This document shows positions 2,474 to 64,000 of a stretch of 64,000 bases of DNA, one piece after another (the stretch's first letter is position 1; the number at the start of each line of letters is the position of its first letter). Both the position numbers and the translations under genes were made by a program. Source of the DNA: Sipunculus nudus (Eukaryota; Annelida; Sipuncula; Golfingiida; Sipunculidae); assembly GCA_026874595.1 (NCBI GenBank), contig CM049318.1, positions 44,992,456 through 45,056,455 on the forward strand. The letters run 5' to 3'. The notes under the pieces were generated by a model. That model saw only the letters and a program-made list of their open reading frames with translations. It had not been told where the DNA came from and searched no databases.

Positions 2474-5400
2474 ATATTGCCCAAAAACAATAGGCTTCTT
2501 GCATTTTTGATTCTACACAAACTGTGAAAGTTTGAAAGCGATGGGATGAAAATTGCGACCTGTAGAGACTGGACAGACAAACAAACAAACAAACAAACAG
2601 ACAAACAGACATCCGCGACTGACCAACCAGCTTGCGAAAATCGAAGATTTCCGGCAAGCAATAAAGTTGTGACTGTGCCTCCAACATGTATGATCATAGA
2701 TGGGGCCCGGAGAGGCCGTCACGCACCGCTGCACACGCCGGCCGCCCACCGTAGGGACCCTGCCGCCACTTGCGGCGACGGCACGTGTCTTCGTGGTTTG
2801 GCGAAAAACGGCGCGAGATTTGACGAGACTAACAATGTGACCCCTGAATGTGACTGCGAGTGTCAGCCGCTATCCAGCGCTGCAAACCATGTGTCTGTAG
2901 CGTGAAAAATGACATAATTATAGGCATTTCTTTGAATGGTCACGTGTTCTCGTTTCACGAGAAACGGTGCGAGATATGACGAGACTTGCGATTGAATGAC
3001 TAAGAACTAGAGGGATGCTGTCTAACGCCAAACACCAGACCTTTCTATCGCAAATATCAACAGAGAGAGAAGCTGGAAAACTCCGAATTTTCAGATTGTC
3101 AAGTTTTACCCCAAAATTTGGTAACCATGGTAACGGCAGCACAAAGCAACATGTGCGAAGGGATAAGCCAATGTTCCTAGTTTCAGATACGACCCAAAAA
3201 ATGGTGTCACGTTTAATATTTTTTGAGATATTGCAGAAAAATGATATGTTACAGTGTTTCATGTACCACGCCCCCTGGTGGCTATTTCCAAAAAATGAAA
3301 AATTGATTTCGAGATATTTCTAAACAACACAAAATATGTCATTTTCAAAGTCATAGTTTAAAAAATGCGACCTGTAAGCCATATCTAATGAAATCTCGAA
3401 AATTCTCGTTTGACGAGAAATGGTGCGAGATTTTACGAGACTTTTACTTGTATGATAAAAAGCTTATTTAGTACTATATGATGCAAAAAACTAGGAATCT
3501 CTAGCTTTAAAAATGACAAAGTTAGAAAAATTAGGCCTTTTATTTTCGAAAATCATGAGATTTCCCCCAAAATGTGTAACCATAGAAACAGCAGATTTCA
3601 GCAACATATACATCAGAAGAAAGGCCTTGGAATGCCGATTAAAAGGAGCCATGTTTGAAGTGGCTATGACAAATAGTAATGGAGATATGAAGAAAAGAGC
3701 ACTTTAGGAACTTTTGATGACCTTGACCTTGACCTTTGACCTATATTGCCCAAAAACAATAGGCTTCTTGCATTTTTGATTCTACACAAACTGTGAAAGT
3801 TTGAAAGCGATGGGATGAAAATTGCGACCTGTAGAGACTGGACAGACAAACAAACAAACAAACAAACAGACAAACAGACATCCGCGACTGACCAACCAGC
3901 TTGCGAAAATCGAAGATTTCCGGCAAGCAATAAAGTTGTGACTGTGCCTCCAACATGTATGATCATAGATGGGGCCCGGAGAGGCCGTCACGCACCGCTG
4001 CACACGCCGGCCGCCCACCGTAGGGACCCTGCCGCCACTTGCGGCGACGGCACGTGTCTTCGTGGTTTGGCGAAAAACGGCGCGAGATTTGACGAGACTA
4101 ACAATGTGACCCCTGAATGTGACTGCGAGTGTCAGCCGCTATCCAGCGCTGCAAACCATGTGTCTGTAGCGTGAAAAATGACATAATTATAGGCATTTCT
4201 TTGAATGGTCACGTGTTCTCGTTTCACGAGAAACGGTGCGAGATATGACGAGACTTGCGATTGAATGACTAAGAACTAGAGGGATGCTGTCTAACGCCAA
4301 ACACCAGACCTTTCTATCGCAAATATCAACAGAGAGAGAAGCTGGAAAACTCCGAATTTTCAGATTGTCAAGTTTTACCCCAAAATTTGGTAACCATGGT
4401 AACGGCAGCACAAAGCAACATGTGCGAAGGGATAAGCCAATGTTCCTAGTTTCAGATACGACCCAAAAAATGGTGTCACGTTTAATATTTTTTGAGATAT
4501 TGCAGAAAAATGATATGTTACAGTGTTTCATGTACCACGCCCCCTGGTGGCTATTTCCAAAAAATGAAAAATTGATTTCGAGATATTTCTAAACAACACA
4601 AAATATGTCATTTTCAAAGTCATAGTTTAAAAAATGCGACCTGTAAGCCATATCTAATGAAATCTCGAAAATTCTCGTTTGACGAGAAATGGTGCGAGAT
4701 TTTACGAGACTTTTACTTGTATGATAAAAAGCTTATTTAGTACTATATGATGCAAAAAACTAGGAATCTCTAGCTTTAAAAATGACAAAGTTAGAAAAAT
4801 TAGGCCTTTTATTTTCGAAAATCATGAGATTTCCCCCAAAATGTGTAACCATAGAAACAGCAGATTTCAGCAACATATACATCAGAAGAAAGGCCTTGGA
4901 ATGCCGATTAAAAGGAGCCATGTTTGAAGTGGCTATGACAAATAGTAATGGAGATATGAAGAAAAGAGCACTTTAGGAACTTTTGATGACCTTGACCTTG
5001 ACCTTTGACCTATATTGCCCAAAAACAATAGGCTTCTTGCATTTTTGATTCTACACAAACTGTGAAAGTTTGAAAGCGATGGGATGAAAATTGCGACCTG
5101 TAGAGACTGGACAGACAAACAAACAAACAAACAAACAGACAAACAGACATCCGCGACTGACCAACCAGCTTGCGAAAATCGAAGATTTCCGGCAAGCAAT
5201 AAAGTTGTGACTGTGCCTCCAACATGTATGATCATAGATGGGGCCCGGAGAGGCCGTCACGCACCGCTGCACACGCCGGCCGCCCACCGTAGGGACCCTG
5301 CCGCCACTTGCGGCGACGGCACGTGTCTTCGTGGTTTGGCGAAAAACGGCGCGAGATTTGACGAGACTAACAATGTGACCCCTGAATGTGACTGCGAGTG

Positions 5401-8400
5401 TCAGCCGCTATCCAGCGCTGCAAACCATGTGTCTGTAGCGTGAAAAATGACATAATTATAGGCATTTCTTTGAATGGTCACGTGTTCTCGTTTCACGAGA
5501 AACGGTGCGAGATATGACGAGACTTGCGATTGAATGACTAAGAACTAGAGGGATGCTGTCTAACGCCAAACACCAGACCTTTCTATCGCAAATATCAACA
5601 GAGAGAGAAGCTGGAAAACTCCGAATTTTCAGATTGTCAAGTTTTACCCCAAAATTTGGTAACCATGGTAACGGCAGCACAAAGCAACATGTGCGAAGGG
5701 ATAAGCCAATGTTCCTAGTTTCAGATACGACCCAAAAAATGGTGTCACGTTTAATATTTTTTGAGATATTGCAGAAAAATGATATGTTACAGTGTTTCAT
5801 GTACCACGCCCCCTGGTGGCTATTTCCAAAAAATGAAAAATTGATTTCGAGATATTTCTAAACAACACAAAATATGTCATTTTCAAAGTCATAGTTTAAA
5901 AAATGCGACCTGTAAGCCATATCTAATGAAATCTCGAAAATTCTCGTTTGACGAGAAATGGTGCGAGATTTTACGAGACTTTTACTTGTATGATAAAAAG
6001 CTTATTTAGTACTATATGATGCAAAAAACTAGGAATCTCTAGCTTTAAAAATGACAAAGTTAGAAAAATTAGGCCTTTTATTTTCGAAAATCATGAGATT
6101 TCCCCCAAAATGTGTAACCATAGAAACAGCAGATTTCAGCAACATATACATCAGAAGAAAGGCCTTGGAATGCCGATTAAAAGGAGCCATGTTTGAAGTG
6201 GCTATGACAAATAGTAATGGAGATATGAAGAAAAGAGCACTTTAGGAACTTTTGATGACCTTGACCTTGACCTTTGACCTATATTGCCCAAAAACAATAG
6301 GCTTCTTGCATTTTTGATTCTACACAAACTGTGAAAGTTTGAAAGCGATGGGATGAAAATTGCGACCTGTAGAGACTGGACAGACAAACAAACAAACAAA
6401 CAAACAGACAAACAGACATCCGCGACTGACCAACCAGCTTGCGAAAATCGAAGATTTCCGGCAAGCAATAAAGTTGTGACTGTGCCTCCAACATGTATGA
6501 TCATAGATGGGGCCCGGAGAGGCCGTCACGCACCGCTGCACACGCCGGCCGCCCACCGTAGGGACCCTGCCGCCACTTGCGGCGACGGCACGTGTCTTCG
6601 TGGTTTGGCGAAAAACGGCGCGAGATTTGACGAGACTAACAATGTGACCCCTGAATGTGACTGCGAGTGTCAGCCGCTATCCAGCGCTGCAAACCATGTG
6701 TCTGTAGCGTGAAAAATGACATAATTATAGGCATTTCTTTGAATGGTCACGTGTTCTCGTTTCACGAGAAACGGTGCGAGATATGACGAGACTTGCGATT
6801 GAATGACTAAGAACTAGAGGGATGCTGTCTAACGCCAAACACCAGACCTTTCTATCGCAAATATCAACAGAGAGAGAAGCTGGAAAACTCCGAATTTTCA
6901 GATTGTCAAGTTTTACCCCAAAATTTGGTAACCATGGTAACGGCAGCACAAAGCAACATGTGCGAAGGGATAAGCCAATGTTCCTAGTTTCAGATACGAC
7001 CCAAAAAATGGTGTCACGTTTAATATTTTTTGAGATATTGCAGAAAAATGATATGTTACAGTGTTTCATGTACCACGCCCCCTGGTGGCTATTTCCAAAA
7101 AATGAAAAATTGATTTCGAGATATTTCTAAACAACACAAAATATGTCATTTTCAAAGTCATAGTTTAAAAAATGCGACCTGTAAGCCATATCTAATGAAA
7201 TCTCGAAAATTCTCGTTTGACGAGAAATGGTGCGAGATTTTACGAGACTTTTACTTGTATGATAAAAAGCTTATTTAGTACTATATGATGCAAAAAACTA
7301 GGAATCTCTAGCTTTAAAAATGACAAAGTTAGAAAAATTAGGCCTTTTATTTTCGAAAATCATGAGATTTCCCCCAAAATGTGTAACCATAGAAACAGCA
7401 GATTTCAGCAACATATACATCAGAAGAAAGGCCTTGGAATGCCGATTAAAAGGAGCCATGTTTGAAGTGGCTATGACAAATAGTAATGGAGATATGAAGA
7501 AAAGAGCACTTTAGGAACTTTTGATGACCTTGACCTTGACCTTTGACCTATATTGCCCAAAAACAATAGGCTTCTTGCATTTTTGATTCTACACAAACTG
7601 TGAAAGTTTGAAAGCGATGGGATGAAAATTGCGACCTGTAGAGACTGGACAGACAAACAAACAAACAAACAAACAGACAAACAGACATCCGCGACTGACC
7701 AACCAGCTTGCGAAAATCGAAGATTTCCGGCAAGCAATAAAGTTGTGACTGTGCCTCCAACATGTATGATCATAGATGGGGCCCGGAGAGGCCGTCACGC
7801 ACCGCTGCACACGCCGGCCGCCCACCGTAGGGACCCTGCCGCCACTTGCGGCGACGGCACGTGTCTTCGTGGTTTGGCGAAAAACGGCGCGAGATTTGAC
7901 GAGACTAACAATGTGACCCCTGAATGTGACTGCGAGTGTCAGCCGCTATCCAGCGCTGCAAACCATGTGTCTGTAGCGTGAAAAATGACATAATTATAGG
8001 CATTTCTTTGAATGGTCACGTGTTCTCGTTTCACGAGAAACGGTGCGAGATATGACGAGACTTGCGATTGAATGACTAAGAACTAGAGGGATGCTGTCTA
8101 ACGCCAAACACCAGACCTTTCTATCGCAAATATCAACAGAGAGAGAAGCTGGAAAACTCCGAATTTTCAGATTGTCAAGTTTTACCCCAAAATTTGGTAA
8201 CCATGGTAACGGCAGCACAAAGCAACATGTGCGAAGGGATAAGCCAATGTTCCTAGTTTCAGATACGACCCAAAAAATGGTGTCACGTTTAATATTTTTT
8301 GAGATATTGCAGAAAAATGATATGTTACAGTGTTTCATGTACCACGCCCCCTGGTGGCTATTTCCAAAAAATGAAAAATTGATTTCGAGATATTTCTAAA

Positions 8401-47556: not shown

Positions 47557-50188
47557 TGTTTTGTGCAAAAATGGCCGATTTAAATTCCGAAAAAAAGCAT
47601 TTTAGGAGCTTCACTGGTCCATTTAGAACCTGTTACAAACGCCGTTTTCGCCGAAATCAGCTCGGTTTCGGCGCAACACGAAATCGTGTTCTCTGCAAAA
47701 ATGGCCGATTTAAATTGCGAAAGAAGCGTTTTAGAAGCTTCATTAGTCCATTCAGAACCTCTTACAAACGTGGTTTTTGCCGAAATCAGCTCGGTTTTCC
47801 AGTAATACAAGATCGTTTTTTCTGCAATAATGCTTCATTAGTCCATTCAGAACATGTTACAAACGTCGTTTTCACCGAAATCACCTCGGTTTTTGCGTAA
47901 TAGAAGATCGTGTTCTCTGCAAAAATTGCCGAATTTAAAATTGCAAAAGATGCGTTTTAAAAGCTTCATTAGTCCATTCAGAAACCTCTTACAAACGCCG
48001 TTTTCGCCGAAATTAGCTCGGTTTTCGCGTTATACAAGATCGTGTTTTGGCGAAAAATGGCCGATTTAAATAACGAAAGAAGCGTTTCACAAGCTTTATT
48101 AGGCCAGTTGATAACCGGTTACAAACGCCGTTTTCGCCGAAATCAGCTCGGTTTCCTAGTAATACTAGATCGCCTTTTCTGCCAAAAATGGCCGATTTAA
48201 ATTGCGAAAGAAGCGTTTTAGAAGCTTCATTAGTCCATTAAGAACCTCTTACAATCGCCGTTTTCGCCGAAATTCGCTCGGTTTTCGAGTAATACAAAAT
48301 CGTGTTCTCTGCAAAAATGGCCGATTTAAATTGCAAAAGAAGCTCTTTAGAAGCTTCATTAGTCCATTTAGAACCTGTGATAAACGTATTTATCGCCGAA
48401 ATCAGCTCGGTTTTCGCGTAATACAAGATCGTGTTTTGTGCAAAAATGGCCGATTTAAATTGCGAAAGAAGCGTTTTAGAAGCTTCATTAGGCCATTTAG
48501 ACACTGTTACAAACGTCGTTTTCGCCGAAATCAGCTCGGTTTTCGCGTAATACAAGATCGTGTTTTGTGCAAAAATGGCCGATATAAATTGCGAAAGAAG
48601 CGTTTTAGAAACTTCATTAGTCCATTTAGACCCTGTTACAAACGCCGTTTTCGCCGAAATTCGCTCGGTTTTCGAGTTGTACAAGATCGTGTTTTGTGCA
48701 AAAATGGCCGAATTAAATAGCAAAAGAAGCGTTTCACAAGCTTTATTATGCCATTTAGAACCTGTTACAAACGTCGGTTTCGCCGAAATCAGCTCGGTTT
48801 TCGCGTAATACAAGATCGTGTTTTCTGCAAAAGTGGCCGATTTAAATTGAGGAAGAAGCATTTTAGAAGCTTCATTAGTCCATTTAGAACCTCTTACAAA
48901 CGCCGTTTTCGCCGAAATTAGCTCGGTTTTCGCGTTATACAAGATCGGGTTTTGGCGAAAAATGGCCGATTTAAATAGCGAAAGAAGCGTTCACAAGCTT
49001 TATTAGGCCAGTTGATAACCGGTTACAAACGACGTTTTCGCCGAAATCAGCTCGGTTTCCTCGTAATACAAGATCGTGTTCGTGCAAAAATGGCCGATTT
49101 AAATTGCGAAAGAAAGGTTTTAGAAGCTTCATCAGTCCAGTTGATAACCGGTTACAAACGTCGTTTTCGCCGAAATCAGCTCGCTTTTAGCGTAATACAA
49201 GATCGTCTTTTCTGCAAAAATTGCCGAATTAAATTGCGAAAGAAGCGTTTTAGAGGCATCATTAGTTCATTTAGAATCTGTTACAAACGTCGTTTTCGCC
49301 GAAATCAGCTTGGTTTTTCGCGTAATACAAGGTCATGTTTTGTGCAAAAAATGGCCGATTTAAAGCCCGAAAAAAGCATTTTAGGAGCTTCACTGGTCCA
49401 TTTAGAACCTGTTACAAACGCCGTTTTCGCCGAAATCAGCTCGGTTTCGGCGCAACACGAAATCGTTTTTCTGGCAAAAATGGCCGATTTAAATTGCGGA
49501 AGATGCGTTTTAAAAGCTTCATTAGTCCATTCAGAACCTCTTACAAACGTGGTTTTTGCCGAAATCAGCTCGGTTTTCCAGTAATACAAGATCGTTTTTT
49601 CTGCAATAATGCTTCATTAGTCCATTCAGAACATGTTACAAACGTCGTTTTCACCGAAATCACCTCGGTTTTTGCGTAATAGAAGATCGTGTTCTCTGCA
49701 AAAATTGCCGATTTAAATTGCAAAAGATGCGTTTTAAAAGCTTCATTAATCCATTCAGAACCTCTTACAAACGCCGTTTTCGCCGAAATTAGCTCGGTTT
49801 TCGCGTTATACAAGATCGTGTTTTGGCGAAAAATGGCCGATGTAAATAACGAAAGAAGCGTTTTCACAAGCTTTATTAGGCCAGTTGATAACCGGTTACA
49901 AACGCCGTTTTTCGCCGAAATCAGCTCGGTTTCCTAGTAATACTAGATCGTATTTGTGCAAAAATGGCCGATTTAAATTGCGAAAGAAAAGTTTTAGAAG
50001 CTTCATCAGTCCAGTTGATAACCGGTTACAAACGTCGTTTTCGCCGAAATCAGCTCGGTTTTCGCGTAATACAAGATCGCCTTTTCTTGCAAAAATTGCC
50101 GAATTAAATTGCGAAAGAAGCGTTTTAGAGGCATCAATAGTTCATTTAGAATCTGTTACAAACGCCGTTTTCGCCGAAATCAGCTTGG
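47557..50188 (+). repeat. Mosaic satellite B up to gap 2
   Basis: About 20 monomers that reuse blocks from the preceding repeats: the TTCCGAAAAAA monomer, truncated monomers near 47822 and 49610, the TATTTATCGCCG monomer near 48389, the GCCGATATAAATTGCG block near 48575, and the GATAACCGGTTAC block near 49012 known from 25814, 29428 and 33171. The N run interrupts the monomer right after CAGCTTGG. Extra bases near 49316, 49350, 49862, 49910 and 50088 increase toward the gap. Confidence 0.8.
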
Positions 50189-50688
50189 NNNNNNNNNNNN
50201 NNNNNNNNNNNNNNNNNNNNNNNNNNNNNNNNNNNNNNNNNNNNNNNNNNNNNNNNNNNNNNNNNNNNNNNNNNNNNNNNNNNNNNNNNNNNNNNNNNNN
50301 NNNNNNNNNNNNNNNNNNNNNNNNNNNNNNNNNNNNNNNNNNNNNNNNNNNNNNNNNNNNNNNNNNNNNNNNNNNNNNNNNNNNNNNNNNNNNNNNNNNN
50401 NNNNNNNNNNNNNNNNNNNNNNNNNNNNNNNNNNNNNNNNNNNNNNNNNNNNNNNNNNNNNNNNNNNNNNNNNNNNNNNNNNNNNNNNNNNNNNNNNNNN
50501 NNNNNNNNNNNNNNNNNNNNNNNNNNNNNNNNNNNNNNNNNNNNNNNNNNNNNNNNNNNNNNNNNNNNNNNNNNNNNNNNNNNNNNNNNNNNNNNNNNNN
50601 NNNNNNNNNNNNNNNNNNNNNNNNNNNNNNNNNNNNNNNNNNNNNNNNNNNNNNNNNNNNNNNNNNNNNNNNNNNNNNNNNNNNNNNN
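50189..50688. other. Assembly gap 2 (exactly 500 N)
   Basis: A second placeholder of exactly 500 N inside satellite B. To its left the array is forward. To its right it begins with the same CGAAAAA..CTTAAATAGGTTATTTAAATAGC junction found at the two reverse-to-forward switches downstream. The gap may therefore hide a reverse-oriented segment, but its size is unknown. Confidence 0.99.
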
Positions 50689-52345
50689 CGAAAAAAACCT
50701 TAAATAGGTTATTTAAATAGCGAAAGAAGCGTTTCACAAGCTTTATTAGGCCATTTAGAATATGTTACAAACGTCGGTTTCGCCAAAATCAGCTCGGTTT
50801 TCTCGTAATACAAGATCGTGTTTTGTGCAAAAATGGCCGATTTAAATTTCGAAAGAAGCGTTTAAGAAGCTTCATTAGTTCATTTAGAACCTGTTACAAA
50901 CGCCGTTTACGCCGAAATCAGCTCGGTTTCGGCGCAACACGAAATCGTTTTTTTGTGCAAAAATGGCCGATTTAAATTGCGAAAGATGCGTTTTAAAAGC
51001 TTCTTTAGTCCATTCAGAACCTCTTACAAACGCCGTTTTCGCCGAAATCAGCTCGGTTTTCCGTAATACAAGATTGTGTTTTTGCGAAAAATGTCCTATT
51101 AAAATAGCGAAAGAAGCGTTTTAGAAGCTTCATTAGTCAATTTAGAACCTGTTACAAACGCCGTTTTCGCCGAAGTTAGCTCAGTTTTCACGTTATACAA
51201 GATCGTGTTTTTGCGAAAAATGGCCGATTTAAATAGCGAAAGAAGCGTTTCACAAGCTTTATTAGGCCATTTAGAATCTGTCAAAAACGTCGTTTTCGCC
51301 GAAATCAGCTCGTTTTTCGGATAATACAAGATGGTGTTTCCTGCAATAATACTTCATTAGTCTATTTATAACCTGTTACAAACGCCGTTTTCGCCGAAGT
51401 TAGCTCAGTTTTTACGTTATACAAGATCGTGTTTTGGCGAAAAATGGCCGATTTAAATAGCGAAAGAAGCATTTCACAAGCTTTATTAGGCCATTTAGAA
51501 TCTGTTACAAACGTCAGTTTCGCCGAAATCAGCTCGGTATTCACGTAATACAAGATCGTGTTTGGTGCAAAAATAGCCAATTTAAATTGCGAAAGAAGCG
51601 TTTTTTAGTAGCTTATTAAGTTCATTTAGAACCTGTTACAAACGTCGTACTCGCCGAATTCATCTCGGTTTTCCCGTTATACAAGATCGTGTTTTCTGCA
51701 AAAATGGCCGATTTAAATTGCGAAAGAAGCGTTTTAGAAACTTCATTAGGCCATTTAGACCCTGTTACAAACGTCGTTTTCGCCGAAATCAGCTCGGTTT
51801 TCGCGTAATACAAGATCGTGTTTTGTGCAAAAATGGCCGATTTAAATTGCGAAAGAAGCAGTTCACAAGCTTTTTTAGGCCATTTAGATCCAGTTACAAA
51901 CGTCAGTTTCGCCGAAATCAGCTCGGTTTTCTCGTAATACAAGATCGTGTTTTGTGCAAAAATGGCCGATTTAAATTGCGAAAGAAGCGTTTTAGAAGCT
52001 TCATTAGTCCAGTTAATAATCGGTTACAAACGTCGTTTTCGCCGAAATCAGCTTGGTTTTAGCGTAATACAAGATCGTGTTTTCTGCAAAAATGGCCGAA
52101 TTAAATTGCGAAAGAAGCGTTTTAGAAGCTTCATTAGGCCATTTAGACCCTGTTACAAACGTCGTTTTCGCCGAAATCAGCTCGTTTTCCCGTAATACAA
52201 GATCGTGCTTTGTGCAAAAATGGCCGATTTGAATTGCGAAAGAAGCGTTTGAGAAGCTTCATTAGGCCATTTAGACCCTGTTACAAACAACGCTTTCGCC
52301 GAAATCAGCTCGGTTTTCGCGTAATACAAGATCGTGTTTTCTGCA
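50689..52345 (+). repeat. Forward arm F1 of the alternating super-repeat
   Basis: About 13 forward monomers, starting with the reverse-to-forward junction sequence and ending at the first forward-to-reverse junction. Its right half matches 58.0-59.3 kb at an offset of about 6958-6960 bp, including a TTCGCCGAATTCATCTCGG monomer and a GAAGCAGTTCACAAGC monomer. Its monomers are more diverged from each other than those at 26-33 kb. Confidence 0.85.
50700..50716. repeat. Reverse-to-forward junction hairpin, copy 1
   Basis: TTAAATA-GGT-TATTTAA is a perfect 7-bp AT stem with a 3-nt loop, preceded by an A-run and followed by a normal forward monomer. Here the reverse-oriented side is missing, because the N run ends 11 bp upstream. 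The same hairpin marks the switches at 55771 and 61970. Confidence 0.85.
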
Positions 52346-52397
52346 TGTTCTGAATGGACTAATGAAGCATTATTGCAGAAAAAACGATCTTGTATTA
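52322..52397. repeat. Forward-to-reverse junction palindrome, copy 1
   Basis: Left arm 52322-52345 (TAATACAAGATC..TTTTCTGCA) and right arm 52374-52397 (TGCAGAAAA..GATCTTGTATTA) are reverse complements with 23 of 24 bases matching, around a 28-bp spacer. Homology between the arms continues outward through whole monomers. The spacer and right arm are a truncated 95-bp-type monomer read backward (CATTATTGCAG). The array orientation changes here. Confidence 0.9.
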
Positions 52398-55300
52398 CTG
52401 GAAAACCGAGCTGATTTCGGCGATAACGACGTTTATAACAGGTTCTAAATGGACTATTGAAGCTTCTAAAACGCTCCTTTCTCAATTTAAATCGGCCATT
52501 TTTGCACAAAACACGAGCTTGTATTATGCGAAAACCAAGCTGATATCGGCGAAAACGAAGTTTGTAAAAGTTTCTAAATGGCCTAATAAACCTTCTAAAA
52601 CGCTTCTTTTGCAATATAAATCGGCTATTTTTGCACAAAACACGATCTTGTATTATGCGAAAACCAAGCTGATTTCGGCGAAAACGACGTTTCTAACAGA
52701 TTTTAAATGGACTAATGAAGCTTCAAAAACGCTTCTTTCGTTATCGAAATCGGTCATTTTTGGACAAAACACTATCTTGTATTACGCGAAAACCGAGCTG
52801 ATTTCGGCGAAAACGACGTTTGTAACAGGGTCTAAATGGCCTAATGAAGCTTCTAAAACGCTTCTTTCGCAATTTAAACCGGCCATTTTAGCACAAAATA
52901 CGATCTTGTATTACGCGAAAACCGAGCTGATTTCGGCGAAAACGACGTTTGTAATAGGGTCTAAATGGCCTAATGAAGCTTCTAAAACGCTTCTTTCTCA
53001 ATTTAAATCGGCCTTTTTTGCACAAAACACGATCTTGCATTACGCGAAAACCGAGCTGATTTCGGCGAAAACGACGTTTGTAACAGATTCGAAATAGACT
53101 AATGAAGCTTCTTAAACGCTTCTTTCGTAATTTAAATCGGCCATTTTTGCACAAAACACGATCTTGTATTATGCGAAAACCAAGCTGATTTCGGCGAAAA
53201 CGACGTTTCTAACAGATTTTAAATGGACTAATGAAGCTTCAAAAACGCTTCTTTCGTTATCGAAATCGGTCATTTTTGGACAAAACACTATCTTGTATTA
53301 CGCGAAAACCGAGCTGATTTCGGCGAAAACGACGTTTGTAACAGGGTCTAAATGGCCTAATGAAGCTTCTAAAACGCTTCTTTCGCAATTTAAAAAGGCC
53401 ATTTTAGCACAAAATACGATCTTGTATTACGCGAAAACCGAGCTGATTTCGGCGAAAACGACGTTTGTAATAGGGTCTAAATGGCCTAATGAAGCTTCTA
53501 AAACGCTTCTTTCTCAATTTAAATCGGCCTTTTTTGCACAAAACACGATCTTGCATTACGCGAAAACCGAGCTGATTTCGGCGAAAACGACGTTTGTAAC
53601 AGATTCGAAATAGACTAATGAAGCTTCTTAAACGCTTCTTTCGTAATTTAAATCGGCCATTTTTGCAGAAAACACGATCTTGTATTACGCGAAAACCGAG
53701 CTGATTTCGGTTAAAACGACGTTTGTAACATGTCCTTAATGGACTGATGAAGCTTCTAAAACGCTTCTTTCCCAATTTAAATTGGCCATTTTTACACAAG
53801 ACACGATCTTGTATTACGCGAAAACCGGGCTGATTTCGGCAAAACTGACGTTTGTAACAGGTTCTAAATGGCCTAGTAAAGCTTCTGAAACGCTTATTTT
53901 GCTATTTAATTCGGCCATATTTGCACAAAACACGATCTTGTATTACGCTAAACCGAGCTGATTTCGGCGAAAACGACGTTTGTAACAGGTTCTAAATGGA
54001 CTAATGAAGCTTCTAAAAACGCTTCTTTCGCAATTTAAATCGGCCATTTTTGCAGTGAACACGATCTTGTATTACGCAAGAACCGAGCTGATTTCGGTGA
54101 AAACGCCGTTTGTAACATGTTCTGAATGGACTACTGAAGCATTATTGCTGAAAAAATGATCTTGTATTACTGGAAAATCGAGCTGATTTCGGCGAAAACC
54201 ACGTTTGTAAGAGGTTCTGAATGGACTAATGAAGCTTTTAAAGCGCATCTTTCCCAATTTAAATCGGCCATTTTTGCACAAAAAACGATTTCGTGTTGCG
54301 CCGAAACCAATCTGATTTCGGCAGAAACGGCGTTTGTAACAGGTTCTAAATGGACCAGTGAAGCTCCTAAAATGCTTCTTTTGCAATTTAAATCGGCTAT
54401 TTTTGCACCAAACATGATCTTGTATTACGCGAAAACCCAGCTGGTTTCGGCGAAACCGAGGTTTGTAACAGGTTCTAAATGGCCTAATAAAGCTTGTGAA
54501 ACGCTTCTTTCGCTATTTAAATCGGCCATTTTCCGACAAAACACGATCTTGTATAACGCGAAAACCGAGCTACTTTCAGGGAAAACGGCGTTTTTAAGAG
54601 GTTCTGAACGGACTAATGAAGCTTTTAAAACGCATCTTTCGCAATTTAAATCGCCCACTTTTGCAGAAAACACGATCTTGTATTACGCGAAAACCCAGCT
54701 GGTTTCGTTAAAAACGACGTTTGTAACAGGTTCTAAATGGACTAATGAAGCTTCTAAACGCTTCTCTCGCAATTTAAATCGGCCATTTTTGCAGAAAATA
54801 CGATCTTGTATTTTGGGAACAACGAGCGGATTTCGGCGAAAACGACGTTTGTAACAGGGTCTAAATGGCCTAATGAAGCTTGTGAGACGATTCTTTTGCA
54901 ATTTAAATCGGCCACTTTTGCAGAAAACACGATCTTGTATTACGCGAAAACCGAGCTGATTTTGGCGAAAACGACGTTTGTATCAGGTTCTAAATGGACT
55001 AATGAAGCTTCTAAACGCTTCTCTCGCAATTTAAATCGGCCATTTTTGCAGAAAACACGATCTTGTATTAAGCGAAAACCAAGCTAATTTAGGCGAAAAC
55101 GACGTTTGTATCAGGTTCTAAATGGACTATTGAAGCTTTTTTTTGCAATTTAAATCGGGCATTTTTGCAGAAAATACGATCTTGTATTAGGCGAAAAACG
55201 AGTTGATTTCGGCGAAAACGATGTTTGTAACAGGTTCTAAATGGCCTAATGAAGGTTCTAAACGCTTTTTTTGCAATTTAAATCGGCCATTTTTGCAGAA

Positions 55301-55763
55301 AATACAATCTTGCATTAGGCGAACAACGAGTTGATTTCGGCGAAAATGACGCTTGTAACAGTTTCTAAATGGCATAATGAAGTTGTCAAACGCTTCTTTC
55401 GCAATTTAAGTATAGAAGCTTCTTTGGCAATTTAAACTGGCTATTTTTGCACAAGACACGATCTTGTATTACGCGAAAACCGAGCTGATTTCGGCGAAAA
55501 CGACGTTTGTAATGGTCTAAATGGCCTAATGAAGCTTCTAAAACGCTTCTTTCGCAATTTCAATCGGTCATTTTTGCACAAAACAGGATCTTGTATTACG
55601 CGAAAACCGAGCTGATTTCGGCGAAAACGACGTTTGTAACAGGGTCTAAATGGCCTAATGAAGCTTCTAAAACGCTTCTTTTGCAATTTAAATCGGACAT
55701 TTTTGCACAAAACACGATCTTGTATTACGCGAAAACCAAGCTGATTTCGTCGAAAACGACGAA
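52346..55763 (-). repeat. Reverse arm R1 of the alternating super-repeat
   Basis: About 26 monomers, all in reverse orientation (CGATCTTGTATTACGCGAAAACCGAGCTGATTTCGGCG). It includes an internal 516-bp tandem duplication (52645-53160 and 53161-53676), a truncated monomer near 54140, and a series of shorter, diverged monomers from about 54740 to 55440 with TTCTAAACGCTTCT. It ends in GTCGAAAACGACG and the junction hairpin. It is 763 bp longer than the second reverse arm, largely because of the 516-bp duplication and about two more monomers near 55440-55700. Confidence 0.9.
52645..53676 (-). repeat. 516-bp (four-monomer) tandem duplication inside R1
   Basis: 52645-53160 and 53161-53676 match at an offset of 516 bp, starting at ATCTTGTATTATGCG. 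Rare marks such as TTTCTAACAGATTTTAAATGG and TTCGTTATCGAAATCGG appear in both. A clear difference is AATTTAAACCGGCC near 52872 against AATTTAAAAAGGCC near 53388, and the copies differ again at the far end. The second reverse arm has this block only once, so the duplication is younger than the super-repeat. Confidence 0.8.
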
Positions 55764-58700
55764 AAAAGCCTTAAATAGGTTATTTAAATAGCAAAAGAAG
55801 CGTTTCACAAGCTTTATTAGGCCATTTAGAATATGTTACAAACGTCGGTTTTGCCGAAATCAGCTCGGTTTTCTCGTAATACAAGATCGTGTTTTGTGCA
55901 AAAATGGCCGATTTAAATTGCGAAAGAAGCGTTTTAGAAGCTTCATTAGTCCAGTTAATAATCGGTTACAAACGTTTTCGCCGAAATCAACTCGGTTTTA
56001 GCGTAATACAAGATATTCTTTTCTGCAAAAATGGCCGAATTAAATTGCGAAAGAAGCGTTTCAGAGGCATCATTAATTCATTTACAATCTGTTACAAACG
56101 TCGTTTTCGTCGAAATCAGCTTGGTTTTCGAGTAATACAAGGTCATGTTTTGTGCAAAAATGGCCGATGTTAATTCCGAAAAAAGCATTTTAGGAGCTTC
56201 ACTGGTCCATTTAGAACCTCTTACAAACACCGTTTTCGCCGAAATCAGATCGGTTTCGGCGCAACACGAAATCGTTTTATGTGCAAAAATGGCCGATTTA
56301 AATTGCTAAAGATGCGTTCTAAATGCTTCATTATTCCATTCAGAACCTCTTACAAACGTGGTTTTCGCCGAAATCAGCTCGGTTTTACAGTAATACAAGA
56401 TCGTTTTTTCTGCAATTATGCTTCATTAGTCCATTCAGAACATGTTACAAACGGAGTTTTCACCGAAATCAGCTCGGTTTTTGCGTAATACAAGATCGTG
56501 TTCTCTGCAAAAATGGCCGATTTAAATTGCGAAAGAAGCGTTTTAGAAGCTTCATTAGTCCATTTAGAACCTGTTATAAACGTAGTTATCGCCGAAATCA
56601 GCTTGGTTTTCCCGTAATACAAGATCGTGTTTTGTGTCAAAATGGTCGATTTAAATTGCGAAAGAAGCGTTTTAGAAGCTTCATTAGTCTACATAGAAAC
56701 CGGTTATAAACGTCGTTTTAACTGAAATCAGCTCGGTTTTCGCGTAATACAAGATCGTGTTCTCTGCAAAAATGGCCCAATTATAATGAGGAAGAAGCAT
56801 TTTAGAAGCTTCATAAGTCCATTTAGAACATATTACAAACGTCGTTTTCTCCAAAATCAGCTTGGTTTTCGCGTGATTCAAGATCGTGTTTTGTTTAAAA
56901 ATGGACGATTTATATTGCGAAAGAAGAGTTTTAGAAGCTTCATCAGTCCATTTAGAACCTTTTACAAACGCCGTTTTCGCCGAAATCAGCTCGGTTTCGG
57001 CGCAACACGAAATCTTTTTTGTGCAAAAATGGCCGATTTAAATTGCAAAAGATGCGTTTTAAAAGCTTTATTAGTCCATTCAGAACCTCTTACAAAAGCC
57101 GTTTTCGCCGAAATTAGCTTGGTTTTCGCGTTATATAAGATTGTGTTTTGGCGAAAAATGTCCTATCTAAATAGCGAAAGAAGCGTTTCACAAGCTTTAT
57201 TAGGCCAGTTGATAACCAGTTACAAACGCCGTTTTCGCCGAAACAGCTCGGTTTCGGCGCAATACGAAATCGTGTTTTGGCGAAAAATGGCCGATTTAAA
57301 TTGCGAAGGAAGCGTATTAGAACTTCATTAATCCAGTTGATAACCGGTAACAAACGTCGTTTTCGCCGAAATCAGATCGGTTTTAGGGTAATACAAGATC
57401 GTCTTTTTTGCAAAAATGGCCGAATTAAATTGCGAAAGAAGCGTTTTAGAGGCATCATTAGTTCATTTAGAATCTGTTACAAACGCCGTTTTCGCCGAAA
57501 TCAGCTCGGTTTCCTAGTAATACTAGATCGTATTTGTGCAAAAATGGCCGATTTAAATTGCGAAAGAAAAGTTTTAGAAGCTTTGATAACCGGTTACAAA
57601 CGTCGTTTTCGCCGAAATCAGCTCGGTTTTCGCGTAATACAAGATCGTGTTTTGTGCAAAAATGGCCGATTTAAATTGCGAAAGAAGCGTTTCGCAAACT
57701 TTATTAGGCCATTTAGAACCTGTTACAAACGTCGGTTTCGCCGAAATCAGCTCCGTTTTCGCGTAATACAAGATCGTGTTTTCTGCAAAAATGGCCGAAT
57801 TAAATTGCAAAAGAAGCCTTTTAGAAGCTTCATTGGTCCATATAGAATCTGTTACATGCGTAGTTTTCCGCGAAAACAGCTTGGTTTTAGCGTAATGCAG
57901 GATATTGTTTTCTGCAAAAATGGCCGATTTAAATTTCGAAAGAAGCGTTTTAGAAGCTTCATTAGTCCATTCAGAACCTCTTACAAACGCCGTTTTTGCC
58001 GAAATCAGCTCGGTTTTCCGTTATACAAGATCGTGATTTGGCGAAAAATGTCCTATTAAAATAGCGAAAGAAGCGTTTTAGAAGCTTCATTAGTCCATTT
58101 AGTATCTGTTAAAAACGTCGTTTTCGCCGAAATCAGCTCGTTTTTCGGATAATACAAGATGGTGTTTCCTGCAATAATACTTCATTAGTCCATTCAGAAC
58201 CTGTTATAAACGCCGTTTTCACCGAAATCACTTCGGTTTTTGCGTAATACAAGATCGTGTTTTCTGCAAAAATGGCCGATTTAAATTGCGAAAGAAGCGT
58301 TTTTAGAAGCTTCATTAGTCCATTTAGAACCTGTCACAAACGCCGTTTTCGCCGAAGTTAGCTCAGTTTTTACGTGATACAAGATCGTGTTTTGGCGAAA
58401 AATGGCCGATTTAAATAGCGAAAGAAGCGTTTCACAAGCTTTATTAGGCCATTTAGAATCTGTTACAAACGTCGGTTTCGCCGAAATCAGCCCGGTATTC
58501 ACGTAATACAAGATCGAGTTTTGTGCAAAAATAGCCAATTTAAATTGCGAAAGAAGCGTTTTTTAGTAGCTTCATCAGTCCATTTAGAACATGTTACAAA
58601 CGCCGTTTTCGCCGAATTCATCTCGGTTTTCCCGTTATACAAGATCGTGTTTTCTGCAAAAATGGCCGATTTAAAATGCGAAAGAAGCGTTTTAGAAGCT

Positions 58701-59304
58701 TCATTAGGCCATTTAGACCCTGTTACAAACGTCGTTTTCGCCGCAATCAGCTCAGTTTTCGCGTAATACAAGATCGTGTTTTGTGCAAAAATGGCCGATT
58801 TAAATTGCGAAAGAAGCAGTTCACAAGCTTTATTAGGCCATATAGATCCAGTTACAAACGTCAGTTTCGCCGAAATCAGCTCGATTTTCTCGTAATACAA
58901 GATCGTGTTTTGTGCAAAAATGGCCGATTTAAATTGCGAAAGAAGCGTTTTAGAAGCTTCATTAGTCCAGTTAATAATCGGTTACAAACGTCGTTTTTGC
59001 CGAAATCAGCTCTTTTTTAACGTAATACAAGATCGTGTTTTGTGCAAAAATGGCCGATTTAAATTGCGAAAGAAGCGTTTTAGATGCTTCATTAGGCCAT
59101 TTAGACCCTGTTACAAACGTCGTTTTCGCCGAAATCAGCTCGGTTTTCGCGTAATACAAGATCGTGCTTTGTGCAAAAATGGCCGATTTAAATTGCGAAA
59201 GAAGCGTTTTAGAAGCTTCATTAGGCCATTTAGACCCTGTTACAAACGTCGTTTTCGCCGAAATCAGCTCGGTTTTCGCGTAATACAAGATCGTGTTTTC
59301 TGCA
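55764..59304 (+). repeat. Forward arm F2 of the alternating super-repeat
   Basis: About 27 forward monomers between the AT-hairpin junction and the second palindromic junction. The first 1.7 kb matches the last forward arm (61961 on) at offsets of 6199-6202 bp; the last 1.3 kb matches F1 at about 6958 bp. It contains truncated monomers near 56410 and 58168 and the 13-bp deletion AAGCTTTGATAACCGG near 57580. Confidence 0.9.
55771..55787. repeat. Reverse-to-forward junction hairpin, copy 2
   Basis: TTAAATA-GGT-TATTTAA. Upstream is reverse satellite B ending CGAAAACGACG plus an A-run and GCC. Downstream is forward satellite B from AAATAGCAAAAGAAGCG. The 20-bp connector does not fit the monomer consensus in either direction and is shared by all three junctions. 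Confidence 0.88.
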
Positions 59305-59356
59305 TGTTATGAATGGACTAATGAAGCATTATTGCAGAAAATACGATCTTGTATTA
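59281..59356. repeat. Forward-to-reverse junction palindrome, copy 2
   Basis: Arms 59281-59304 and 59333-59356 match at 23 of 24 bases around a 28-bp spacer. It is the same breakpoint as at 52345, with minor changes (TGTTATGAATGG for TGTTCTGAATGG). Two junctions with the same breakpoint imply one inversion event later copied as part of a larger unit. Confidence 0.9.
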
Positions 59357-61960
59357 ATGGAAAACCGAGCTGATTTCGGCGATAACGACGTTTATAACAG
59401 GTTCTAAATGGACTAGTGAAGCTTCTAAAACGCTTCTTTCTCAATTTTTAATCGGCCATTTTTGCACAAAACACGAGCTTGTATTATGCGAAAACCAAGC
59501 TGATATCGCCGAAAACGAAGTTTGTAAAAGTTTCTAAATGGCCAAATAAACCTTCTAAAACGCTTCTTTGGCAATATAAATCGGCTATTTTTGCACAAAA
59601 CACGATCTTGTATTATGCGAAAACCAAGCTGATTTCGGCGAAAACGACGTTTGTAACAGGGTCTAAATGGACTAATGAAGCTTCAAAAACGCTTCTTTCG
59701 TTATCGAAATCGGCCATTTTTGGACAAAACACTATCTTGTATTAAGCGAAAACCGAGCTGATTTCGGCAAAAACGACGTTTATAACCGGTTACTTGGTGG
59801 ACTAATGAAGCTTCTAAAACGCTTCTTTCGCAATTTAACCGGCCATTTTGCACAAAACACGATCTTGTATTACGCGAAAACCGAGCTGATTTCGGCGAAA
59901 ACGACGTTTGTAATAGGGTCTCAATGGCCTAATGAAGCTTCTAAAACGCTTCTTTCTCAATTTAAATCGGCCATTTTTGCACAAAACACGATCTTGCATT
60001 TCGCGAAAACCGAGCTGATTTCGGCGAAAACGACGTTTGTAACAGATTCGAAATAGACTAATGAAGCTTCTTAAACGCTTCTTTCTCAATTTAAATCGGC
60101 CATTTTTGCAGAAAACACGATCTTGTATTACGCGAAAACCGAGCTGATTTCAGTTAAAACGACGTTTGTAACATATCCTTAATGGACTGATGAAGCTTCT
60201 AAAACGCTTCTTTCGCAATTTAAATTGGCCATTTTTACACAAGACACGATCTTGTATTACGCGAAAACCGGGCTGATTTCAGCAAAACCGACGTTTGTAA
60301 CAGGTTCTAAATGGCCTAGTAAAACTTCTGAAACTCTTATTTTGCTATTTAATTCGGCCATATTTGCACAAAACACGATCTTGTATTACGCTAAACCGAG
60401 CTGATTTCGGCGAAAACGACGTTTGTAACGGGTTCTAAATGGACTAATGAAGCTTCTAAAAACGCTTCTTTCGCAATATAAATCGGCCATTTTTGCAATG
60501 AACACGATCTTGTATTACGCAAAAACCGAGCTGATTTCGGTGAAAACGCCGTTTGTAACATGTTCTGAATGGACTACTGAAGCATTATTGCAGAAAAAAC
60601 GATCTTGTATTACTGGAAAATCGAGCTGATTTCGGCGAAAACCACGTTTGTAAGAGGTTCTGAATGGACTAATGAAGCTTTTAAATCGCATCTTTCCCAA
60701 TTTAAATCGGCCATTTTTGCACAAAAAACGATTTCGTGTTGCGCCGAAACCAATCTGATTTCGGCAGAAACGGCGTTTGTAACAGGTTCTAAATGGACCA
60801 GTGAAGCTCCTAAAATGCTTCTTTCGCAATTTAAATCGGCTATTTTTGCACCAAACATGATCTTGTATTACGCGAAAACCAAGCTGGTTTCGGCGAAACC
60901 GAGGTTTGTAACAGGTTCTAAATTTCCTAATAAAGCTTGTGAAACTCTTCTTTCGCTATTTAAATCGGCCATTTTCCGACAAAACACGATCTTGTATAAC
61001 GCGAAAACCGAGCTACTTTCGGGGAAAACGGCGTTTTTAAGAAGTTCTGAACGGACTAATGAAGCTTTTAAAACGCATCTTTCGCAATTTCAATCGGCCA
61101 CTTTTGCAGAAAACACGATCTTGTATTACGCGAAAACCTAGCTGGTTTCGTTGAAAACGACGTTTGTAACAGGTTCTAAATGGACTAATGAAGCTTCTAA
61201 ACGCTTCTCTTGCAATTTAAATCGGCCATTTTTGCAGAAAATACAATCTTGTATTTTGGGAACAACGAGCGGATTTCGGCGAAAACGACGTTTGTAACAG
61301 GTTCTAAATGGCCTAATGAAGCTTGTCAGACGATTCTTTCGCAATTTAAATCGGCCACTTTTGCAGAAAACACGATCTTGTATTACGCGAAAACCGAGCT
61401 GATTTTGGCGAAAACGACGTTTGTATCAGGTTCTAAATGGACTAATGAAGCTTCTAAACGCTTCTCTCGCAATTTAAATCGGCCATTTTTGCAGAAAATA
61501 CGATTTTGTATTAGGCGAAAAACGAGTTGATTTCGGCGAAAACGACGTTTGTAACAGGTTCTAAATGGCCTAATGAAGGTTCTAAACGCTTTTTTTTGCA
61601 ATTTAAATCGGCTATTTTTGCAGAAAATACGATCTTGCATTAGGCGAACAACGAGTTGGTTTCGGCGAAAAATGACGCTTGTAACAGTTTCTAAATGGAC
61701 TAATGAAGTTGTCAAACGCTTCTTTCGCAATTTAAGTATTGAAGCTTCTTTGGCAATTTAAACCGGTTATTTTTGCACAAGACACGATCTTGTATTACGC
61801 GAAAACCGAGCTGATTTCGGCGAAAACGACGTTTGTAACAGGGTCTAAATGGCCTAATGAAGCTTCTAAAACGCTTCTTTTGCAATTTAAATCGGACATT
61901 TTTGCACAAAACACGATCTTGTATTACGCGAAAACCGAGCTGATTTCGGCGAAAACGACG
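59305..61960 (-). repeat. Reverse arm R2 of the alternating super-repeat
   Basis: About 20 reverse monomers. Follows the same order as R1 without the 516-bp duplication. It carries an odd monomer near 59770-59790, where CGTTTATAACCGGTTACTTGGTGGAC replaces the usual TTTGTAACAGG..TAAATGG. It includes a truncated monomer near 60580 and ends with CGAAAACGACGGAAAAAGCC at the junction hairpin. Confidence 0.9.
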
Positions 61961-64000
61961 GAAAAAGCCTTAAATAGGTTATTTAAATAGCGAAAGAAGC
62001 GTTTCACAAGCTTTATTAGGCCATTTAGAATATGTTACAAACGTCGGTTTTGCCGAAATCAGCTCGGTTTTCTTGTAATACAAGATCGTGTTTTGTGCAA
62101 AAATGGCCGATTTAAATTGCGAAAGAAGCGTTTTAGAAGCTTCATTAGTCCAGTTAATAATCGGTTACAAACGTCGTTTTCGCCGAAATCAACTCGGTTT
62201 TAGCGTAATACAAGATATTCTTTTCTGCAAAAATGGCCGAATTAAATTGCGAAAGAAGCGTTTCAGAGGCATCATTAGTTCATTTAGAATCTGTTACAAA
62301 CGTCGTTTTCGTCGAAATCAGCTTGGTTTTCGAGTAATACAAGGTCATGTTTTGTGCAAAAATGGATGATGTAAATTCCGAAAAAAGCATTTTAGGAGCT
62401 TCACTGGTCCATTTAGAACTTCTTACAAACACCGTTTTCGCCGAAATCAGATCGGTTTCGGCGCAAGACGAAATCGTTTTATGTGCAAAAATGGCCGATT
62501 TAAATTGCTAAAGATGCGTTTTAAATGCTTCATTATTCCATTCAGAACCTCTTACAAACGTGGTTTTCGCCGAAATCAGCTCGGTGTTACAGTAATACAA
62601 GATCGTTTTTTCTGCAATAATGCTTCATTAGTCCATTCAGAACATGTTACAAACGGAGTTTTCACCGAAATCAGCTCGGTTTTTGCGTAATACAAGATCG
62701 TGTTCTCTGCAAAAATGGCCGATTTAAATTGCTAAAGAAGCGTTTTAGAAGCTTCATTAGTCCATTTAGAACCTGTTATAAACGTAGTTATCGCCGAAAT
62801 CAGCTTGGTTTTCCCGTAATACAAGATCGTGTTTTGTGTCAAAATGGTCGATTTAAATTGCGAAAGAAGCGTTTTAGAAGCTTCATTAGTCCACATAGAA
62901 ACCGGTTATAAACGTCGTTTTCGCCGAAATCAGCTCGGTTTTCGCGTAATACAAGATCGTGTTTTCTGCAAAAATGGCCCAATTATATTGAGGAAGAAGC
63001 ATTTTAGAAGCTTCATTAGTCCATTTAGAACATATTACAAACGTCGTTTTCTCCAAAATCAGCTTGGTTTTCGCGTGATTCAAGATCGTGTTTTGTTTAA
63101 AAATGGACGATTTATATTGCGAAAGAAGAGTTTTAGAAGCTTCATCAGTCCATTTAGAACCTGTTACAAACGCCGTTTTCGCCGAAATCAGCTCGGTTTC
63201 GGCGCAACACGAAATCTTTTTTGTGCAAAAATGGCCGATTTAAATTGCAAAAGATGCGTTTTAAAAGCTTCATTAGTCCATTCAGAACCTCTTACAAAAG
63301 CCGTTTTCGCCGAAATTAGCTTGGTTTTCGCGTTATACAAGATTGTGTTTTGGCGAAAAATGTCCTATCTAAATAGCGAAAGAAGCGTTTCACAAGCTTT
63401 ATTAGGCCAGTTGATAACCAGTTACAAACGCCGTTTTCGCCGAAACAGCTCGGTTTCGGCGCAATACGAAATCGTGTTTTGGCGAAAAATGGCCGATTTA
63501 AATTGCGAAGGAAGCGTATTAGAACTTCATTAATCCAGTTGATAACCGGTAACAAACGTCGTTTTCGCCGAAATCAGATCGGTTTTAGGGTAATACAAGA
63601 TCGTCTTTTTTGCAAAAATGGCCGAATTAAATTGCGAAAGAAGCGTTTTAGAGGCATCATTAGTTCATTTAGAATCTGTTACAAACGCCGTTTTCGCCGA
63701 AATCAGCTCGATTTCGGCGCAAAACGAAATCGTTTTTTGTGTAAAAATGGCCGATTTAAATTGCAAAAGATGTGTTTTAAAAGCTTCATTAGTCCATTCA
63801 GAACCTCTTACAATCGCCGTTTTCGCCGAAATTAGCTCGGTTTTCGCGTTATACAAGATCGTGTTTTGGCGAAAAATGGCCGATTTAAATAACGAAAGAA
63901 GCGTTTCACAAGCTTTATTAGGCCAGTTGATTACCGGTAACAAACGCCGTTTTCGCCGAAATCAGCTCGGTTTCCTAGTAATACTAGATCGTATTTGTGC
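61961..64000 (+). repeat. Forward arm F3 of the alternating super-repeat (runs off the window)
   Basis: Forward monomers matching F2 at an offset of 6199-6202 bp up to about 63700. There F3 holds two additional monomers (ATTTCGGCGCAAAACG and the GATTACCGGTAAC monomer) before rejoining F2 at CCTAGTAATACTAG (57514 against 63974, offset 6460 = 6202 + 258). The array continues beyond the window edge. Confidence 0.88.
61970..61986. repeat. Reverse-to-forward junction hairpin, copy 3
   Basis: TTAAATA-GGT-TATTTAA, preceded by GGCGAAAACGACGGAAAAAGCC and followed by AATAGCGAAAGAAGCG. Same connector as at 50700 and 55771, with one-base differences in the A-run. Confidence 0.88.

Follow-up and report, generated by a model that had tools for sequence, protein, structure and literature searches.

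A 129-bp satellite changes direction four times at the downstream end of the window, the stretch of 64,000 nucleotides of Sipunculus nudus DNA analyzed here (C13:44992456-45056455). Two questions are raised by this locus: whether the satellite alternates regularly, as the original prediction had it, and how its reversed blocks came about. The genome examined comprised 1.4265 Gb in 153 contigs. Monomers of the satellite were annotated on both strands over 264 kb (the window plus 200 kb downstream), tandem-repeat finding was also run on the whole window, and the letters from 50001 to 62000 were inspected directly.

Direction changes and the duplicated unit

The satellite runs forward up to 52345, backward up to 55761, forward up to 59304, backward up to 61960 and forward thereafter. 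These four direction changes lie within about 11 kb, at 52345, 55761/55762, 59304/59305 and 61960/61961, where flips had been predicted at 52345 and near 55764, 59305 and 61961 (Table 1). In the monomer annotation, the inner blocks are runs of 27 backward (52368-55762), 28 forward (55813-59320) and 21 backward monomers (59327-61961), which remain unchanged under a non-overlap rule and are flanked by forward arrays. Reversal affects entire blocks, each longer than 20 monomers, so chance need not be considered. Both types of joint, HH (forward to backward) and TT (backward to forward), recur in nearly identical form, in agreement with the prediction of one sequence for each type of junction. The contig that carries the flips (50689-88468) is bounded by 500-N gaps, and its 37,780 bases are taken up by 295 monomers of the 129-bp satellite.

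Table 1. Satellite blocks, joints and duplicated units, in window numbering.
Feature	Position	Strand	Remark
Scaffold gap, 500 N	50189..50688		Contig with flips starts directly after
F1, forward satellite block, cut by gap	50689..52345	+	
TT joint (backward to forward), truncated copy at contig end, filler variant	50689..50710	+	
HH joint 1 (forward to backward), 2-bp overlap CA	52344..52345		
R1, backward block, 27 monomers, internal 516-bp tandem duplication	52346..55761	-	
TT joint with filler of about 20-22 bp, first complete copy in window	55762..55782		
F2, forward block, 28 monomers, filler included	55762..59304	+	
HH joint 2, 2-bp overlap as in HH joint 1	59303..59304		
R2, backward block, 21 monomers	59305..61960	-	
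TT joint with filler, second complete copy in window	61961..61981		
F3 start, forward block	61961..64000	+	Unflipped to next gap, 88468
U1, duplicated unit (F-HH-R1-TT-F)	51400..57590		
U2, duplicated unit (F-HH-R2-TT-F)	58360..63790		

Offsets between repeated parts were obtained from 25-mers present exactly twice in 50689-66000. The main values (6202, 659 pairs; 6199, 68; 6958, 90; 6959, 62; 6960, 56) bear out the predicted matching points at 6199-6202 bp and 6958-6960 bp. Additional offsets of 6443 (519 pairs) and 516 (180 pairs) arise because R1 contains a 516-bp tandem duplication of four monomers (52669-53667). An offset of 1504 (284 shared 25-mers) corresponds to a repeat inside F3, at 63687-65973.

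The prediction that an inverted-repeat unit was copied at least twice holds: there are two complete copies, U1 and U2, and their identity over aligned bases is 97.6% (counted in whole 300-base steps). This value lies above the identity between monomers, as in a higher-order repeat, with two complete copies only. About 760 bases of U1 lack a counterpart in U2, a difference that fits the 516-bp duplication in R1 plus some 241 further bases. F2 and F3 are 97-100% identical over the first 1.6 kb, 95% up to 1.8 kb and 83.5-88.3% beyond, a drop which indicates that high likeness stops at the unit edge. The forward stretch of F2 is largely missing from F1; hence, the copies have been altered since the duplication. 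As read from the sequence, the layout is that of one segment bearing one backward piece, doubled.

Extent of the alternation and copies of the joints

Regular alternation, as predicted for this satellite, was not found: there are only two copies in 11.3 kb, and the neighboring array runs mostly one way. After 61961, the satellite is forward for 26.5 kb up to the next gap. Eight gap-free pieces of 25091, 37780, 25763, 26348, 39748, 28149, 46201 and 6323 bases (sum 235403) contain 0, 4, 0, 0, 0, 0, 1 and 0 flips, respectively, that is, five flips in about 235 kb, located in two of the eight pieces. The fifth piece includes a 2.7-kb non-satellite insert, and the eighth ends at the edge of the fetched sequence. 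Direction changes across gaps were left out of the count because contig orientation may be the choice of the scaffolder.

Other repeats and inserts were seen on C13. The first part of the window (1-24597) holds a second satellite, made of about 19 same-direction copies of a 1269-bp unit, in which an ACAA/ACAG microsatellite tract always occupies the same position; this region reads as a satellite/microsatellite composite. A 2.7-kb non-satellite insert lies within a forward array at L017:5453-8165.

Besides the two complete TT joints of the window, a third, incomplete one is found at 50689, with 96% identity to F2 over the first 200 bases and 75-86% afterwards. A fourth lies at 252501 (window numbering; its 401-bp match is C13:45244756-45245156), on a separate contig about 190 kb away in scaffold coordinates, and connects a 41.5-kb backward array (R4) to 4.6 kb of forward monomers. 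R4 is not a short insert, and its end is core-like (97.6% identity to the F3 core); the history at this fourth joint must therefore be more complex.

Among the matches listed, places with a full-length hit of 97-100% identity number at least three for the 401-bp TT query and at least two for the HH query, all on C13; identity to the other near-identical full-length copies is 97% for HH, and 98% and 97% for TT. Other nearly full-length matches among those listed show 80-85% identity (three on C13 and two on C2 for the TT query, two on C13 for the HH query). The C13 matches of this kind overlap joint positions in the opposite orientation, and thus represent a joint aligned with its own reverse complement. 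Exact-motif scans covered part of the phases, with the motif present in 1576 of 1774 long monomers and in 132 of 256 in the diverged zone. The TT scan yielded three places with spacings of 111-171 bases, all on C13, and none in the control. The HH scan yielded three places per strand with spacings of 2-62 bases, two of which are the known joints and the third of which, on C10, reads like 129-bp satellite; it is weak as a count, as its reversed-pattern control yielded 59 places.

Reversals were also detected in two 10-kb pieces of C2, both chosen by their match to the joint query. One of them (L030) has a single backward-to-forward flip between 5199 and 5238, with a different joint. The other (L029) contains two single backward monomers (4859-4987 and 8106-8234), 3247 bases apart within forward arrays; comparison of the two copies gives full identity along 800 bases that end within the backward monomer, 96% in the 200 bases that follow it and 81-90% farther upstream. 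Reversal followed by duplication thus seems to have occurred independently on C2. Flips were absent from four further 10-kb pieces (L031-L034, three with one-direction satellite and one without satellite) and from eight pieces of about 4.7 kb (L001-L008, which matched F1 plus a portion of R1 best). On C2, the satellite is interrupted by a non-satellite, AT-rich segment of about 3 kb (L030:123-3117).

Joint structure and origin of the reversed blocks

Direction changes of this kind might be produced by the assembly or by foldback reads. The assembly is broken by gaps, only 2 bp of the contig precede the filler of the TT joint at its start, and PMC9055855 warns that array reversals may be false and result from artefacts of nanopore reads. 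A foldback read, however, would yield nearly identical arms. Identity over 1-kb arms in mirror register, compared with eight shifted registers per joint, was 88.4% at HH1 (shifted, 86.7-89.2%), 87.0% at HH2 (85.6-89.6%), and 86.1% and 85.7% at the two complete TT joints in the window (84.0-85.8% and 83.4-85.7%). On the side of an artefact, the mirror register is top by 0.3 points at one TT joint, joint top at the other, and also top in a BLAST comparison of F1 with R1 (84.9% versus 84.3%, 84.5% and 84.2%). All these margins are under one point, which indicates that the arms are independent pieces of the satellite family, and a foldback artefact was rejected because mirror excess is not material at either HH or TT joints. 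Furthermore, sequence differences of a few percent separate the two HH joints and the three complete TT joints, whose surroundings also differ, and one complete TT joint sits in another contig. The concern about an assembly artefact is thus largely answered by the sequence, and we consider this explanation extremely improbable.

At HH joints, forward homology stops at the A of CTGCA (consensus position 89), and backward homology has its edge at 22-24, with a 2-bp overlap. At TT joints, the backward edge lies at CGACG (consensus 32), and forward homology restarts at about 100-102, with 20-22 bp in between. This filler is present at all four TT sites seen; it contains TTAAATAG, and a second copy of TTAAATAG directly adjoins it. 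Eight other loose matches to the filler (up to 5 mismatches in 20) were found in the 264 kb, all in ordinary-looking monomer sequence. Filler that repeats adjacent sequence is a known pattern of end joining by polymerase theta, and the combination of a 2-bp overlap at HH and a 20-22-bp filler at TT appears as in end joining. Self-complementarity of the monomer is 28, compared with a mean of 13.4 (sd 3.6, max 35) in 500 single-base shuffles, a difference that is suggestive only. The sequence habits TACATGTA and TGACCTTTGACC would point to a mollusc, which is a guess. No match to the RuBisCO large-chain family was obtained; as 5 of the 14 named controls were detected, all of them from prokaryotes, this result speaks only weakly against a plant.

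In monomer phase, the forward ends of the two joint types are 11-13 bases apart and the backward ends 8-10. These phases seem to fit better with a reversed piece at one break, or with two template switches, than with a plain inversion; the argument is post hoc and modest, the probability that both pairs lie that close by chance being about 0.03 by hand calculation. The origin that we consider probable is that a reversed piece of satellite was joined in at a single break by end joining, and that tandem duplication followed. The setting would be a more diverged part of a centromere-like 129-bp array, where an array piece of a few kilobases (21-27 monomers in the copies of today) may have been joined backwards at one break in the forward array. 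End joining at the edges of the insert would have left the 2-bp overlap on one side and the filler on the other. The break would have cost the target monomer about 10-12 bp, and the inserted piece would be a whole number of repeats less about 7-9 bp. Later, unequal exchange, the usual way in which satellite units duplicate in tandem, would have doubled a segment of about 5.4-6.2 kb together with its insert, to give F-R-F-R-F. An intact forward version of the insertion site was not encountered in the sequence covered by the analyses above.

A single HH and a single TT joint would most simply come from a plain inversion inside the forward array; the region would then have been duplicated in tandem, and the duplication of U1 and U2 fits this. 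Under such an inversion, however, the HH-forward edge (89) should match the TT-backward edge (32) in phase, and the two differ by 57 of 129; likewise, the HH-backward (22-24) and TT-forward (100-102) edges differ by 76-80 of 129 (49-53 the other way). Plain inversion was rejected on these phases, and we regard it as quite improbable. Two template switches in repair replication, in which the opposite strand or another array would be copied for a few kilobases before a return, and tandem duplication would follow, are unlikely to a lesser degree. They explain why the forward copy resumes near where it left off (phases 89 and 100-102), and also the 2-bp overlap and the filler, but it then becomes a coincidence that the backward ends (22-24 and 32) lie so close together. 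As the joints they predict are almost the same as those of an insertion, the two cannot be separated by sequence alone.

A further possibility is that the arrangement is a selected centromere structure, in which conserved joints would be the sites of hairpins or cruciforms made by the alternating arms, an idea put forward for Tribolium. In its favor, the 331-base strand around HH1 has a predicted folding energy of -137.3 kcal/mol as DNA, compared with -36.6 for 100 shuffles (z -27.3). A forward-only control of equal length gives z -0.3, with 41 of 100 shuffles folding at least as well. The strong predicted fold is explained by the inverted arms, and any inverted repeat of this kind would be expected to fold well. 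Also in favor, the satellite occupies, among the matches listed, one stretch each on C2, C3, C8, C9, C12, C13 and C17, two stretches on C4, and three small contigs. Flips, however, are as rare as reported above, and selection for structure seems to us highly unlikely. We infer that the reversed blocks arose by one-break insertion, end joining and unequal exchange, and that they have no dedicated function.

Comparison with known systems

The layout has closer precedents than the original prediction assumed. According to PMC13081366, TmSat1 and TmSat2 of T. madens form kilobase direct and inverted subarrays with conserved inversion sites, and macro-dyad satellite arrays of this kind are documented only in Tribolium. 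Resemblances to our locus are the reversal of arrays within kilobases, the conserved sequences at inversion sites (98.9% and 98.2% within two groups in Tribolium, 97-98% here in few copies) and a putatively (peri)centromeric location. At our locus, too, a single satellite forms subarrays of several kilobases in both orientations. The difference lies in scale and composition. In Tribolium, the inversion-site sequences number 2044 and 3486 for two types, and two satellites intermingle; here, within the sequence examined and the matches listed, there are two unit copies, one satellite and few joints (five flips in about 235 kb, near-identical joints at no fewer than two places for HH and three for TT, and other joints on C2). 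Intermingled major and minor satellites were not found in the contig with the flips, which the 129-bp family fills alone.

A further speculation, which we consider rather doubtful, is that the locus shows a macro-dyad satellite at an early stage and outside Tribolium, in which a reversed piece has entered a higher-order unit and begun to spread on one chromosome. On this reading, the piece would have been taken up at one break, with a satellite circle as a conceivable source. If true, such a reading would catch the origin of alternating arrays, and a small macro-dyad case outside Tribolium would separate origin from supposed function.

Other satellites show part of what is seen here. Directional switches are reported in mouse minor and major satellites (1.7% and 1.9%) in the portion of PMC10880262 considered, so that rare switches of orientation in centromeric or pericentromeric arrays are shared with our locus; that portion, unlike our locus, describes no repeated inverted unit. 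The excerpts of PMC12597820 and PMC7004042 contain nothing on a duplicated inverted-block layout. Alpha-satellite inversions in primates, for example one of 3.2 Mb in an orangutan centromere, are described in part of PMC11062924; they share with our locus reversed monomer blocks in centromeric arrays, but the primate blocks are large or polymorphic, in contrast to a duplicated unit of a few kilobases. Altogether, the inverted block appears to be a locally confined rearrangement whose general type is already known, and a new example with unusually readable joints, which show how satellite arrays gain reversed blocks and how such blocks amplify.
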